64,000 nucleotides of DNA from Vulcanimicrobiota bacterium (GTDB lineage Bacteria; Vulcanimicrobiota; Vulcanimicrobiia; Vulcanimicrobiales; Vulcanimicrobiaceae). The notes beneath the pieces were generated by a model. The model saw only the letters and a program-made list of their open reading frames with translations, had not been told where the DNA came from and did not search any database. Below, piece by piece: positions 20,187-54,982 of the stretch (position 1 is the first letter of the stretch; each line of letters begins with the position of its first letter). The stretch is from contig DAIDGX010000009.1 in assembly GCA_027452165.1 (NCBI GenBank), positions 1 through 64,000 of the forward strand, written 5' to 3'. Both the position numbers and the translations under genes were made by a program.

Positions 20187-20837
20187 ATGAAACGTCGGAG
20201 TGATCGCATTCTCTTATGGGCTTTAGGCGTCTCGATTGTCGCGCACGGTGCGCTTGCGCTTGCCGTCCGAACGCTTCCGCGCGTTGAGGCGCATCCAGAG
20301 CAGCCGCCGGCGCGAATCGACATCATCGTCCGACCCACCCTTCCTCCACCGACGCCTCAGCCGCCCCGCAAGGTGGCGGTGCATCGGCGCGTCGTCGCCG
20401 CCCGCCCGCGACACCTTGCGCCTCCGGTCGTTCCGAACGTGCCCGCAGTACCCGGCCCTGCCGTCGCGCCGCCGACGGGTCCGACGGGTGCTCCCGGGCC
20501 CTTGGACGGAGCGACCTCCGGGCCATCGGCATCGCCTGCGCCGACGCCTACGCCGAAGCCGTCGTGCGCAGCGCCGGACGTTGCGGCAAAGGCGATCGAC
20601 GTCGTGCAGCCGAGCACGCCCGACGACGCCGAACAGATGACGGGAACCGCGAAAGTGGCGGTCGCCCTCACGCCGAGCGGATCGGTCTCAGCGGCGAGCA
20701 TCTACCGCTCGACGGGCGACATGATGCTCGATCGTGCGGCGCTGCGCGCGGCACGTATGAGCACCTACAGCCCCGAGGTGCGCGATTGCACGCCGGTCGG
20801 CGGTACCTACCTCTTCACGGTCGATTTCACGAACTGA
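20187..20837 (+). CDS. TonB-type energy transducer
   Basis: This 216-residue protein has the TonB layout: one N-terminal membrane helix (residues about 8-27), a long Pro/Ala-rich stretch (about 36-130) that can span the periplasm, and a C-terminal TonB domain (about 150-214, including GTAKVAVALTPSGSVSAASI). TonB proteins pass proton-motive energy from ExbB/ExbD to outer-membrane receptors. No exbB, exbD or receptor gene is close. The C-terminal domain contains a Cys (VRDCTPV) and a second Cys lies before it (PSCAAP), which could form a disulphide. It stands alone, after a tRNA terminator and before tRNA-Phe. Confidence 0.85.
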   Translation: MKRRSDRILLWALGVSIVAHGALALAVRTLPRVEAHPEQPPARIDIIVRPTLPPPTPQPPRKVAVHRRVVAARPRHLAPPVVPNVPAVPGPAVAPPTGPTGAPGPLDGATSGPSASPAPTPTPKPSCAAPDVAAKAIDVVQPSTPDDAEQMTGTAKVAVALTPSGSVSAASIYRSTGDMMLDRAALRAARMSTYSPEVRDCTPVGGTYLFTVDFTN

Positions 20838-49943: not shown

Positions 49944-49999
49944 CCGGTCACAGGCGGCGAAGCCCATCCGTTAACGCGCTACGAAGAGGAGGGCCACGG

Positions 50000-50524
50000 A
50001 TGGAGGAGGTCTACCTCGCGACCGGTTCGACCGAGTCGAGAGCGCACGCCCGGGTCGAGGATCTCGCTCGGGAGTACCAGACGAAGCTTGCGCGTTACCT
50101 TCGCCGGATGGTCGGAGATAGCGACGTCGCGCTCGATCTCACGCAAGACGTATTCTTTGCTGCATTTCGCACGCTTCGGAGCGATCCCGAACGTCCGTTG
50201 ACCGCCGGATGGCTCTACAAAACGGCGACGAATGGCGCGATATCGTTCTTGCGGCGTAAAAAGATCATCCGCATGCTTCCGCTCGACCGCGACCACGATG
50301 TCCACTCGTGGCGTATCGACGAGCAGAGCGCGGTCTCGCTCGATCTCCAATCGGCGATCGACCGGTTACCGCCGGAGCAAGCGTCGGCGGTGCTGCTCAC
50401 AAGCTATGCGGGATACTCGTCGCACGAAGCCGCGGCGATCCTTGGAACCACGGCCGACGCGGTACGCCAGCGCGTCTGCCGTGCGATGAAAACACTGCGT
50501 ACGATCATGACGGAGACATCGTGA
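50000..50524 (+). CDS. ECF-type RNA polymerase sigma factor
   Basis: The ATG 50000 has GAGGAGGG 7 bases upstream and gives a 174-residue sigma factor. Region 2 spans about residues 22-90 (LRRMVGDSDVALDLTQDVFFAAF), and region 4 about 115-168 (LPPEQASAVLLTSYAGYSSHEAAAILGTTADAVRQRV), with the helix-turn-helix that binds the -35 element. The gene ends at the GTG of the zinc-finger/TonB protein (GTGA overlap), the common position for an anti-sigma factor. The promoter it recognises is not evident. It may be autoregulated. Confidence 0.92.
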   Translation: MEEVYLATGSTESRAHARVEDLAREYQTKLARYLRRMVGDSDVALDLTQDVFFAAFRTLRSDPERPLTAGWLYKTATNGAISFLRRKKIIRMLPLDRDHDVHSWRIDEQSAVSLDLQSAIDRLPPEQASAVLLTSYAGYSSHEAAAILGTTADAVRQRVCRAMKTLRTIMTETS

Positions 50525-51543
50525 AGACAGCCTGCGCTCGCGCAGAGATCCTTGCCGGAGCGATCGCGCTCGGCGAAGCAACCGATCCGGAGCGCGACGA
50601 GTATCGCCGCCATATCGCGGCCTGCGCGCCCTGCGTGCAGTCGCTTGGCGGCGAACGCGAGATCGAGCGCGTGATGCATACCGTGGTGCAGGCGCGCGAG
50701 ATGGAGACATGGCAGCCGCTCGTCCCGTCGTTCGCGGCGCGTCGCGCACGCGTGGCGCGCTCGCTCGCTCGCGTAGGCCTCTGGAGTGTGGTGGTGGCGC
50801 TCGCGCTCTCGCTTGCCGTCCATGTGCTCGTGGCGGCGGCGATACGGCCGATGGACGTTGCGCGAGCAGGCGCGCCGAAGGTTGCGACCGGTATCATGCA
50901 CGTGACGTTTGAGCACCGCGCGGGAACGCCGGCCGTCGTGCCCGCGCCGCATCCGCGTCCCCTACGTCCGGCCCGCGTCGTGACGCCGAGCCTCGTCGTC
51001 GTGCACAACGTCATTACGCTCAAAGCACCCGAACGCATCGCGGACCGGCACGCGGAGAAGACCCTACCCGCGGCCGAAACGCGCATTACGACGACCCAAG
51101 TTGCCTCGCTCTCGGCAGGTCCTGCGAACGTGCCGATTTGGCGTCGCGGTTCCGCGCTTCCACGCGCACACGCAGCGCCGCCAATCCTCCAGGGCCGGGC
51201 TGAATCCATCGCGATCGCGCCGAACACGGTGATCCGTGACGTGAGCCCGCTTGGCGGTGACGCGGCGATCAATCCTCGTCCCCCGCTGATTGCGTACTCG
51301 CAGGGCGCACAGGGCACGACGGCGTTCGAGGTGAGCGTTGACGATCGTGGTGTCCCGCGACGCTGCACGATCACCAAATCGTCGGGCTTTCTTTCGCTCG
51401 ACGGAGCGGTGTGTGCCGCGGCGATGCATGCGCGCTACGCGCCGAGGACGGTGAACGGCCGCCCGACGCCGGGCGTCTATCGCGATGCGTTCACCTTCCG
51501 CGCGGAGCAGACCGACACGACGTCGCTTCCCGAGATGCAGTAG
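50521..51543 (+). CDS. Anti-sigma zinc finger fused to TonB C-terminal domain
   Basis: The start GTG 50521 overlaps the sigma factor stop. Residues 20-40 contain the ZAS zinc motif His31-xxx-Cys35-xx-Cys38 typical of anti-sigma factors. A membrane helix lies at about 85-108. A long, Pro/Thr/Arg-rich periplasmic stretch follows (110-260). Residues about 266-328 form a TonB C-terminal domain (TAFEVSVDDRGVPRRCTITKSSG), with two Cys (282 and 298) that may pair. The arrangement suggests a transmembrane anti-sigma factor whose periplasmic end can also contact outer-membrane receptors. That coupled role is an inference. The 340-residue length fits one chain without frameshift. Confidence 0.83.
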   Translation: MKTACARAEILAGAIALGEATDPERDEYRRHIAACAPCVQSLGGEREIERVMHTVVQAREMETWQPLVPSFAARRARVARSLARVGLWSVVVALALSLAVHVLVAAAIRPMDVARAGAPKVATGIMHVTFEHRAGTPAVVPAPHPRPLRPARVVTPSLVVVHNVITLKAPERIADRHAEKTLPAAETRITTTQVASLSAGPANVPIWRRGSALPRAHAAPPILQGRAESIAIAPNTVIRDVSPLGGDAAINPRPPLIAYSQGAQGTTAFEVSVDDRGVPRRCTITKSSGFLSLDGAVCAAAMHARYAPRTVNGRPTPGVYRDAFTFRAEQTDTTSLPEMQ

Positions 51544-52637: not shown

Positions 52638-53129
52638 CTAGTCCACGGACTTGCGGAAGAAGGCGAGCATCTTGTCGCGTTCGGGCATGATGCGGAACTC
52701 CTCGAATCCCCAGCTCTTCACTTGCGCGATGCCGCGATTATTGTTCATCGAGACGAGGAACGTGAGCGTCTTGACGTTGCGCTTCATTGCCAGGCGCTGC
52801 ACCTCGCCGACGAGCTCGCTCCCGACCTCCGCCGGCGCACCCTGACGCACGCGCAAGCTCTCGATCATCGCGACGTCCATGCCGTTGGCGGCTTCGGGGT
52901 CTTCGTAGCCGATCGGCAGCTTGAAGACAAGTTGTACCATGCCGAGCAGTCCCGAGTGATCCTCGGCGATGAGGATGACGCGACGGCCCGCCTTCTGCTC
53001 CGCGAGGCACTTGACCATACGCTGGTTCCAGGATTCATTCGCGGCAGGCACGCCAGTCAGAACCCCCTCGCGGGTGAGCCGATCGATGTCGGTCGCCTGG
53101 GCGAAGCGAATGAAGATCTTGTTGGCCAC
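52638..53129 (-). CDS. GNAT-family N-acetyltransferase
   Basis: The 163-residue protein has the GNAT layout: an N-terminal IRFAQATDIDRLTREGV, a core strand VILIAEDHSGLLGMVQLV, the acetyl-CoA loop region SLRVRQGAPAEVGSELVGEVQRLA (Arg/Gly segment), and the end NNNRGIAQVKSWGFEEF. It acetylates an unknown amine using acetyl-CoA. The next gene downstream is the ATP-grasp ligase, 23 bases away, so both may be one unit. The divergent gene is a cytochrome c lipoprotein. Confidence 0.87.
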   Translation of the reverse strand: MANKIFIRFAQATDIDRLTREGVLTGVPAANESWNQRMVKCLAEQKAGRRVILIAEDHSGLLGMVQLVFKLPIGYEDPEAANGMDVAMIESLRVRQGAPAEVGSELVGEVQRLAMKRNVKTLTFLVSMNNNRGIAQVKSWGFEEFRIMPERDKMLAFFRKSVD

Positions 53130-53187
53130 GCCGGTCTTGTTCCGTACGTGGGGAGAAGAGCACCTTCATCAAGAATGCGCGAGCACG

Positions 53188-53547
53188 ATGGATCGCCGCG
53201 TTACGCTGATCGCAGTGCTAGTATTGCTCGCCGCCACGAGCGGGTGCGGTCACCACCGGAAGGCGCACGCCGCCATCGCTGCATACGACGACGCGGTGCC
53301 CACGCCCGCGAGCGCGAGTGCAGGCCGCGGCGCGGCCATCTTTGCGCAGCAGTGCGCCGCCTGTCACGGCGCGCAGGGTGCAGGCGGGCGTATCGGTCCC
53401 AGCCTCACGGGCGAGCGGGAGCGCAAAGACCTGGCGTCCGTCGTTGCTATCATTAAAGACCCCGAACCGCCTATGCCAAAGCTCTTTCCCGGCGAGCTTT
53501 CAGCCCAGGACGTGGAGGATCTCGCCGCCTACATCGAGCGCCTGTGA
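53188..53547 (+). CDS. Cytochrome c lipoprotein (monohaem)
   Basis: The start ATG 53188 gives a 119-residue protein with a signal peptide and lipobox TSGC (residues about 17-20), so it is lipid-anchored. The haem motif is CAACH, the sixth ligand Met is in PPMPKLFPG, and the end AQDVEDLAAYIERL is the usual C-terminal helix. It would carry electrons in the periplasm at the membrane. No oxidase is close. The photolyase gene starts 7 bases after the stop. Confidence 0.92.
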   Translation: MDRRVTLIAVLVLLAATSGCGHHRKAHAAIAAYDDAVPTPASASAGRGAAIFAQQCAACHGAQGAGGRIGPSLTGERERKDLASVVAIIKDPEPPMPKLFPGELSAQDVEDLAAYIERL

Positions 53548-53554
53548 GTTCCCG

Positions 53555-54982
53555 ATGACGAACGCTCCGTTCATCTTTCGCTTTACGCACGACCTTCGCG
53601 TGGAGGATCACGCCGGACTCGTGCAGGCGGCGGCGCACGGCGAAGTGTTGCCCGTCTTCGTCATCGACCGAGCATTCGAGGCGCGTATGGCGCGTTCGCC
53701 GCGGCGCGCTGCCTATGCGGTCGCCGCGCTCTCCGCGCTCGACCGTGCCCTGCGCGAGCGGGGTGCGCGCTTGATCGTCCGGCGCGGCACGGCCGCAGCG
53801 ATCCTCAAACAGGTGGCCCGCGCAAGCGGAGCGCGCGGGGTGGCGTGGACCGCACGCTACGACGGGGCGGGCGCGCAGGCCGACGACCGGCTGCGCTCGG
53901 AACTCGAAGAGGCCGGCTTGCGTGCGCTCGTGGTCCACGACGCGCCGGCAATCGCTCCGGAGGAGACCGCCGCTGCGCGACCGAGCGGCGGCAACGGCTA
54001 CCGTGCGTTCGTGCCGTACTTCGAGGTGTGGCGCACGCTTGCGGTCGCGGCCTTCGATGCCCCGCTGCTCGTGCGCTTCGCCGCAACCGATCTCCAGAGC
54101 GAACCACTACCGCAGGCAAGCGAGTTCAACGCCTCCGGCGGCGCGAGCGCAGTAGCCGCACTCGACGTGCGCGAGGGACTCATGCGTTTCCTCGCCGGGG
54201 CGGCGTTGCAGTACGCCTCCGGCATGAACGTACCGAGCCTTGATGGCACCGCGCGGCTGTCGGCACATCTGTCGTTCGGCGTGATCTCGGCGCGAAGCGT
54301 CGTGCGTGCGACCCGGAAGCGCTTGGAAGACCCGTTTCTTTTGAGCGAGGAGCGGGCGAGCCTTCGCATCTTTTTGCGCTCGCTCGCGATGCGCGACTTT
54401 TTTCTGCAATTGGCGTTTTTTCATCCGTATGCCGATAACGAACCGCTGCAAGAGCGGATGCGCGCGTTTACATTCGCGCGTTCGCACCGCGCGCTCGATG
54501 CGTGGCGCGCGGGTACGACGGGCTTTCCGCTCGTCGATGCGGGCATGCGCGAGCTACACGAGACGGGATGGATGCATCCGCACGTACGCGCGGTGGCCGC
54601 ATCGTTTCTCTGTTACGATTTGGGGGTAGATTGGCGTGTCGGACGCGACGAGTGGGATCGCTATCTCGTCGAAGACGATCCTGCGCTTGCGACCGGGAAT
54701 TGGCAGTGGATCGCCGGTGTCGGCGCCGACCTCGTGCAATACCCGCGTATCTACAACCCCGACAAGCAGCGGCGCCGCTTCGATCCGAACGGCGCGTACG
54801 TGAAACGCTACGTGCACGAGCTTGCGGCGGTTCCGGTTGCGGCGTGGGACGGCGCGCATGCGCGCGAGGGGCAGTTGAGCCTCGCGCTCTTCGCCCATGA
54901 CGACTACCCGCAACCGGTGGTCGACCATGACGAGGCTGCGCGCGCATTTCTCGCGCGCTACCGTGCGTTCGTTAATGGGTAG
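53555..54982 (+). CDS. phr: Cryptochrome/DNA photolyase family protein
   Basis: The start ATG 53555 follows the cytochrome stop by 7 bases and gives 475 residues. The N-terminal antenna domain has RFTHDLRVEDHAGLVQAAA. The FAD-binding domain holds the sequence VDAGMRELHETGWMHPHVR, the Trp-rich NWQWIAGVGADLVQYPRIYNP, and NGAYVKRYVHEL. In class I CPD photolyases the corresponding segments hold FAD and the damaged DNA. It could repair cyclobutane dimers with light or sense light. The exact subclass is not settled. Confidence 0.92.
   Translation: MTNAPFIFRFTHDLRVEDHAGLVQAAAHGEVLPVFVIDRAFEARMARSPRRAAYAVAALSALDRALRERGARLIVRRGTAAAILKQVARASGARGVAWTARYDGAGAQADDRLRSELEEAGLRALVVHDAPAIAPEETAAARPSGGNGYRAFVPYFEVWRTLAVAAFDAPLLVRFAATDLQSEPLPQASEFNASGGASAVAALDVREGLMRFLAGAALQYASGMNVPSLDGTARLSAHLSFGVISARSVVRATRKRLEDPFLLSEERASLRIFLRSLAMRDFFLQLAFFHPYADNEPLQERMRAFTFARSHRALDAWRAGTTGFPLVDAGMRELHETGWMHPHVRAVAASFLCYDLGVDWRVGRDEWDRYLVEDDPALATGNWQWIAGVGADLVQYPRIYNPDKQRRRFDPNGAYVKRYVHELAAVPVAAWDGAHAREGQLSLALFAHDDYPQPVVDHDEAARAFLARYRAFVNG

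Follow-up and report, generated by a model that had tools for sequence, protein, structure and literature searches.

An ECF sigma factor gene in the window (the whole stretch of DNA analysed, 64,000 nt) is followed by an overlapping gene whose product joins a zinc-binding ZAS domain, a membrane helix and a TonB C-terminal domain in one unbroken frame of 340 aa (50521-51543, forward strand). A sequence-only reading of the window had proposed this three-part arrangement, and it holds in every part. Full fusions of the same architecture are found at the same syntenic locus in ~34 Eremiobacterota genomes. Our best explanation, which we hold tentatively, is that the fusion is the anti-sigma factor of the ECF sigma factor encoded by the overlapping gene, with a TonB energy-transducer module serving as its envelope input.

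Anatomy of the fusion protein

The fusion gene begins with a GTG start codon and overlaps the sigma factor gene by 4 bp (GTGA). Its first 68 residues (50521-50724) form a ZAS/zf-HC2 domain with the motif H31-x3-C35-x2-C38; the three residues lie where the sequence-only reading had placed them and are invariant in 30 of 30 relatives. The transmembrane helix, put by that reading at about residues 85-108, is located at approximately 87-108 (50779-50844) and contains the motif S97-x3-H101. It is followed by a predicted disordered periplasmic linker (residues 111-240, 50851-51240), with pLDDT below 50 over most of residues 111-231, and by the TonB C-terminal domain (residues 241-328, 51241-51504), which carries the invariant Cys282 and Cys298. 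Across the fusion alignment, the linker has a median length of 130 residues, is disordered, contains 11% proline and is long enough to span the periplasm. An HNV motif at residues 162-164 (51004-51012) is nearly invariant within this disordered linker.

How well do profiles and structures support these assignments? The Pfam TonB_C profile matches residues 255-326 (E 2.6e-10, 41.1 bits against a cut-off of 24.6), close to the span of about 266-328 suggested from the sequence, and it matches 30/30 relatives. The zf-HC2 profile matches residues 5-38 with E 0.0031 and 18.0 bits, which is under its cut-off of 22.2, and it matches 27/30 relatives at E<=0.01. In this domain search, suggested earlier as a check on the three-part arrangement, the TonB domain of the window protein thus scores above its threshold and the zinc-finger domain a little under it. 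The AlphaFold model has a four-helix ZAS part at residues 3-62, a long helix at 71-107, disorder at 111-231 and a TonB fold at 246-326, the last with pLDDT mostly above 90. The best match to the C-terminal fold is TonB bound to TbpA (PDB 9dc4_T, Z 11.8 over 86 residues), and the scores against TonB structures, including the FoxA (6i97), BtuB (2gsk) and FhuA (2grx) complexes, range from Z 11.8 to 8. For the N-terminal fold, comparison with sigma-bound RskA, MucA, RslA, RsiW and ChrR gives Z 5.4-3.2; the matches recur consistently, but the values are weak for a helical domain. Beyond the membrane helix, the model contains the disordered linker and TonB_C only; the Pfam scan returns just TonB_C and zf-HC2, and a FecR-type domain is absent from the fusion. 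Gene overlap and fold together suggest that the first 84 residues bind the sigma factor, and the protein would be oriented in the membrane with its C-terminus in the periplasm.

The membrane helix has features of a TonB helix. In the fusion alignment, Ser97 is kept in 21/30 and His101 in 25/30 proteins within an otherwise variable hydrophobic helix, and the fusion in the window has both. The five replacements of His101 are three Arg, one Asn and one Pro. The family's ordinary TonB2 proteins have SxxxH at the same helix depth in 30/30 cases, and its ordinary TonB1 proteins have SxxxH or SxxxN, again at the same depth. Ser-x3-His is absent from the five other membrane-anchored zf-HC2 proteins compared, four from the host genome and one from a relative. 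In E. coli TonB, Ser16 and His20 contact Ser34 and Trp38 of ExbB, and the Ser/His part of the TonB SHLS motif is its most conserved part (PMC12215075). In clade C, a related group whose proteins lack TonB_C, the helix mostly has Ser-x3-Asn at the equivalent place. Profile comparison with hhalign gives P 2.4e-5 for TonB2 against the fusion helix and P 7.7e-5 for TonB1 against clade C, both weak matches between short hydrophobic segments. Descent of the clade C helix from a TonB helix is thus a weakly supported suggestion from these sequences. The fusion gene is not encoded with exbB or exbD; the host has an exbB-exbD-exbD-tonB-tonB cluster on another contig, C26. A second TonB_C protein is encoded in the window (20631-20828, in a 218-residue frame), also away from the exbBD operon.

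The locus, the sigma factor and its predicted targets

The host genome is 2.6 Mb in size, and the window lies on its contig C9. Its relatives by sequence are Candidatus Eremiobacterota (Vulcanimicrobiota), a poorly known soil phylum. The syntenic gene order is queG, moaA, sigma factor, anti-sigma factor, (cytochrome c), photolyase, DUF4870 and ABC transporter, and the order of sigma factor then anti-sigma factor is kept in all syntenic loci. One locus with full Eremiobacterota synteny around the sigma/fusion pair (L085) is filed as a Rhodospirillales MAG and is probably misnamed. In the window, a small c-type cytochrome (Pfam Cytochrome_CBB3; 52969-53547, forward strand) and a DNA photolyase (FAD_binding_7 3.1e-61, DNA_photolyase 7e-29; 53555-54982, forward strand) lie downstream, and two reverse-strand genes separate the fusion gene from the cytochrome gene. 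Photolyase is the downstream partner at nearly all orthologous loci. In many relatives, the cytochrome c and/or photolyase genes start 20-60 bp past the anti-sigma gene and in its orientation, which makes co-transcription with it probable.

The sigma factor itself (50000-50524, forward strand) is a 174-aa protein with matches to Sigma70_r2 (5.7e-13) and Sigma70_r4_2 (7.7e-13). Of the phylum's 149 genomes, 60 have an orthologue, always as a single copy, and these 60 belong to a single family; a search of viral contigs with the sigma protein found no relatives. A predicted autoregulated ECF promoter on the same strand (49947-49973; -35 GTCACA, 16-bp spacer, -10 CGTTA) begins 3 bp past the moaA stop codon. 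The pattern GTCAC[A/G]-N16-CGTT stands 5' of the sigma gene at 45/47 loci; with 46 occurrences in the 892 kb of these loci, it is found almost exclusively before that gene. Genome-wide, strict sites number 40 across 12 relatives, compared with 9 for a reversed control.

Which other genes might this sigma factor control? The host genome has 16 strict motif sites, and the real-looking targets among them are only the sigma factor's own operon and one secreted protein. The latter (C13:68459; L114:1500-1893) is a small secreted protein of ~118 aa with a weak CarboxypepD_reg match. Four relatives have this gene too (L139, L142, L150 and L151), with the site at an unchanged distance from the ATG and with differing spacers, such that the motif lies ~35 bp 5' of the start codon in five genomes. 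The small secreted protein is thus a probable core target. The motif also stands upstream of a DUF4139 protein and of a membrane protein with a weak DoxX match, each in two genera (L147/L157 and L156/L158), of which one has the full fusion (G074) and the other the truncated form (G051); another motif-preceded protein is common to two genomes of genus g5. The regulon is likely to comprise envelope and secreted proteins together with cytochrome c and photolyase. There are no receptors among the shared predicted targets. The host's TonB operon or receptors were also considered as sigma factor targets and rejected, with 0/16 strict sites on contig C26.

Distribution, selection and evolution

Full-length orthologues of the fusion are present in 31 genomes, and three further genomes have both parts in gapped or divergent form. 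A frameshift between the parts, which the sequence-only reading had named as grounds for giving up the fusion, is excluded by these full-length orthologues. In one genome (L073/L101, G034), the fusion is divided between two frames, with an unresolved base close to the break; this is probably an assembly error. By genome, the tally is ~34 with the full fusion, 15 with a truncated TonB_C (genus g5) and 11 with no TonB_C (clade C). When close pairs are compared, TonB_C has a dN/dS of 0.00-0.13, the ZAS part one of 0.11-0.28 and the linker one of 0.11-0.52, so that no other part of the chain is as constrained as TonB_C. Outside the phylum, contigs were scanned with exact short peptide patterns, a method that reaches close relatives only, and all matches were Eremiobacterota or syntenic with them. 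A tblastn search of plasmids gave weak matches to the TonB domain only.

The two variant groups show what can be removed from the fusion. Genus g5 keeps the sigma factor and the promoter, while its TonB domain is missing the last strand, its linker is short and the TonB-type His is absent; the truncated protein gives a poor structural model (pLDDT 59). In the sigma factor tree, genus g5 nests inside the fusion group, so its truncation is a secondary loss. Clade C is set apart by a branch with full support (100/100), and the tree leaves it unrooted because the outgroups are too distant. Clades with a truncated or absent TonB domain keep the sigma pair; hence, the TonB part is an add-on input rather than the core of the switch. 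Whether clade C lost TonB_C or never had it, the TonB part modifies a pre-existing sigma/anti-sigma switch.

How might the fusion work?

The mechanism that we favour, and hold provisionally, would run as follows. The cytoplasmic ZAS domain would hold the sigma factor, while the membrane helix, through its TonB-type Ser-x3-His, would dock on the ExbB-ExbD motor as an ordinary TonB does. The flexible linker would take the TonB domain across the periplasm, where it would bind a TonB-box-like segment of a putative outer-membrane or periplasmic partner. Engagement, its loss, or force through the helix may then lead to the anti-sigma part being altered or cleaved, and through this conformational change or proteolysis to release of the sigma factor. 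Once free, the sigma factor would switch on the operon that encodes it, in many cases together with cytochrome c and photolyase, as well as a few secreted and membrane proteins. A TonB-module input is favoured because both domains share one frame and fold, because ~34 genomes keep the full fusion and purifying selection on it is strongest in TonB_C, and because S97 and H101 match the family's TonB2 and TonB1 and are absent from the zf-HC2 proteins compared. It is also favoured because ExbB is present in all genomes tested, the host having an ExbB-ExbD-TonB operon and 10 TBDT plugs, and because the promoter occurs at 45/47 loci and before shared targets elsewhere. Counted against it are the loss of the His in 5/30 fusions, a linker with only ~11% proline, the ability of genus g5 and clade C to run the sigma switch without a full TonB_C, and the lack of any consistent association with TBDT genes. 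A more specific version is also possible, and we put it forward with somewhat less confidence: the proton-driven TonB/ExbBD motor may act directly on the sigma inhibitor, such that partner engagement or motor energy is passed to transcription by a single inner-membrane protein.

Are outer-membrane receptors the partners? The sequence-only reading had suggested that one chain may hold the sigma factor and reach outer-membrane receptors or other proteins, as a one-protein shortcut. The chain itself fits this suggestion: it combines an anti-sigma domain with a genuine TonB domain, a TonB-type helix and a linker that can cross the periplasm, and there is no FecR-type protein. The receptor arm fares less well. 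A TBDT gene is adjacent at only 1 of ~35 loci (L064), where a secreted protein, a lipoprotein-like gene and a TonB-dependent receptor (L064:7424-12219) take the place of the cytochrome c/photolyase pair. The predicted targets are not receptors, and two related groups keep the sigma/anti-sigma pair with a truncated or missing TonB domain. ExbB and 3-20 TBDT plugs are present in every genome tested, with or without the fusion; the idea that TBDT number tracks the presence of the fusion was rejected, the counts being equal in the two sets of genomes. Contact of the TonB end with outer-membrane receptors is plausible.

There are other ways to read the same chain. The TonB-fold domain could be a periplasmic redox or stress sensor, in which the disulfide state of Cys282 and Cys298 controls the anti-sigma factor in response to light or oxidative stress, although we consider this rather unlikely. 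The two cysteines are invariant in 30/30 full fusions and survive in the truncated domain of genus g5, 7 of the 11 clade C proteins still end in a Cys pair without having TonB_C, the host's ordinary TonB proteins have their cysteines elsewhere, and the gene cluster often runs on into cytochrome c and photolyase. However, a structural disulfide would be invariant too, the clade C tails are not recognisably homologous to TonB_C, and a redox sensor leaves the conserved Ser-x3-His and the ~130-residue linker unexplained. Redox sensing by Cys282/Cys298 is the strongest rival explanation, and it is compatible with a TonB-module input.

It is less likely still that the protein is a conventional anti-sigma factor of the zf-HC2 type, governed by regulated proteolysis or by the redox state of its zinc site, with a TonB domain that carries no signal and serves only to dimerise the protein or to anchor it at the cell wall or outer membrane. 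Such a role would suit the related clades in which all or half of the TonB domain is missing and the sigma gene, promoter and synteny are intact, but where the domain is present its dN/dS is the lowest in the chain, below that of the ZAS part, and the TonB helix motif is retained. Another suggestion, that the fusion is mainly a transport protein, a third TonB whose appended ZAS domain reports the amount free, is improbable: no TonB part is missing and genomes with full fusions have ordinary TonB1 and TonB2 as well, yet the gene sits beside a sigma factor rather than beside exbBD, and the anti-sigma part persists in clades that lack the TonB part. The sub-threshold zf-HC2 match, taken alone, might raise the suspicion of an artefact (a frameshift, a mis-assembly or a chance profile match), which is already refuted for practical purposes by the full-length orthologues of 31 separate genomes, and is opposed by the purifying selection and the confident fold.

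What are the implications of a TonB-module input, the reading that we prefer? The conserved fusion raises the possibility of a direct link between TonB or envelope state and a transcription switch. In the known routes from the envelope to a sigma factor, the sensor, TonB and the anti-sigma factor are separate proteins, or the signal passes through a proteolysis cascade. A sigma inhibitor joined to TonB would allow a direct test of TonB force or occupancy as a signal for transcription. At the orthologous locus, the TonB domain is full, truncated or absent beside the same sigma factor and promoter, a natural series in which the contribution of TonB could be studied, and the promoter motif is a ready reporter.

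Comparison with known systems

The fusion shares features with several known systems and differs from each of them. Like the ZAS/zf-HC2 anti-sigma factors RsrA, RslA, RsiW and ChrR, it has an overlapping sigma gene, an HxxxCxxC motif and a four-helix N-terminal domain. The known members of this group have other extracytoplasmic domains or none, and none is known to have TonB_C. Like the TonB/ExbB/ExbD transducers, it has one Ser-x3-His helix, a flexible linker and a TonB_C fold; unlike them, it has ~84 anti-sigma residues before the helix, a sigma-linked gene and a distinct Cys pair. The FecI-FecR-FecA system also pairs an ECF sigma factor with an anti-sigma factor that spans the membrane once, and the TonB machinery takes part in its signalling (PMC9249621). 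There, however, FecR is a protein distinct from TonB, and the N-terminal domain of the receptor signals to the periplasmic domain of FecR, whereas here the anti-sigma factor is of the ZAS type, the TonB domain is in the same chain and a receptor gene is rarely adjacent. Dma proteins, reported from Bacteroidota only, are likewise single anti-sigma chains that extend out of the cytosol in the direction of the outer membrane (PMC13088901). Their own domains cover the whole distance between outer membrane and cytosol; the outer-membrane contact of the fusion would be non-covalent, through the TonB domain.

A precedent for a fused TonB_C is the MxcH type (NCBIfam NF038079): the TonB_C of 28/30 fusions matches the N-terminal part of this receptor model, with TonB_C attached to a receptor there and to an anti-sigma factor here. 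The promoter also has a known counterpart. ECF41 promoters have a -35 TGTCACA, a spacer of 16+/-1 bp and a -10 CGTC (PMC3426412), and GTCACA-N16-CGTT is close to these. Unlike ECF41 sigma factors, which have a fused C-terminal regulatory extension, the 174-aa sigma factor consists of the core regions and has a separate anti-sigma factor. A published description of a sigma-inhibitor/TonB fusion was not found in the literature searched, of which coverage was partial. The architecture may exist in other phyla too. The parts are known; what would be new is their combination in one conserved chain with the TonB helix motif, as a new input module.
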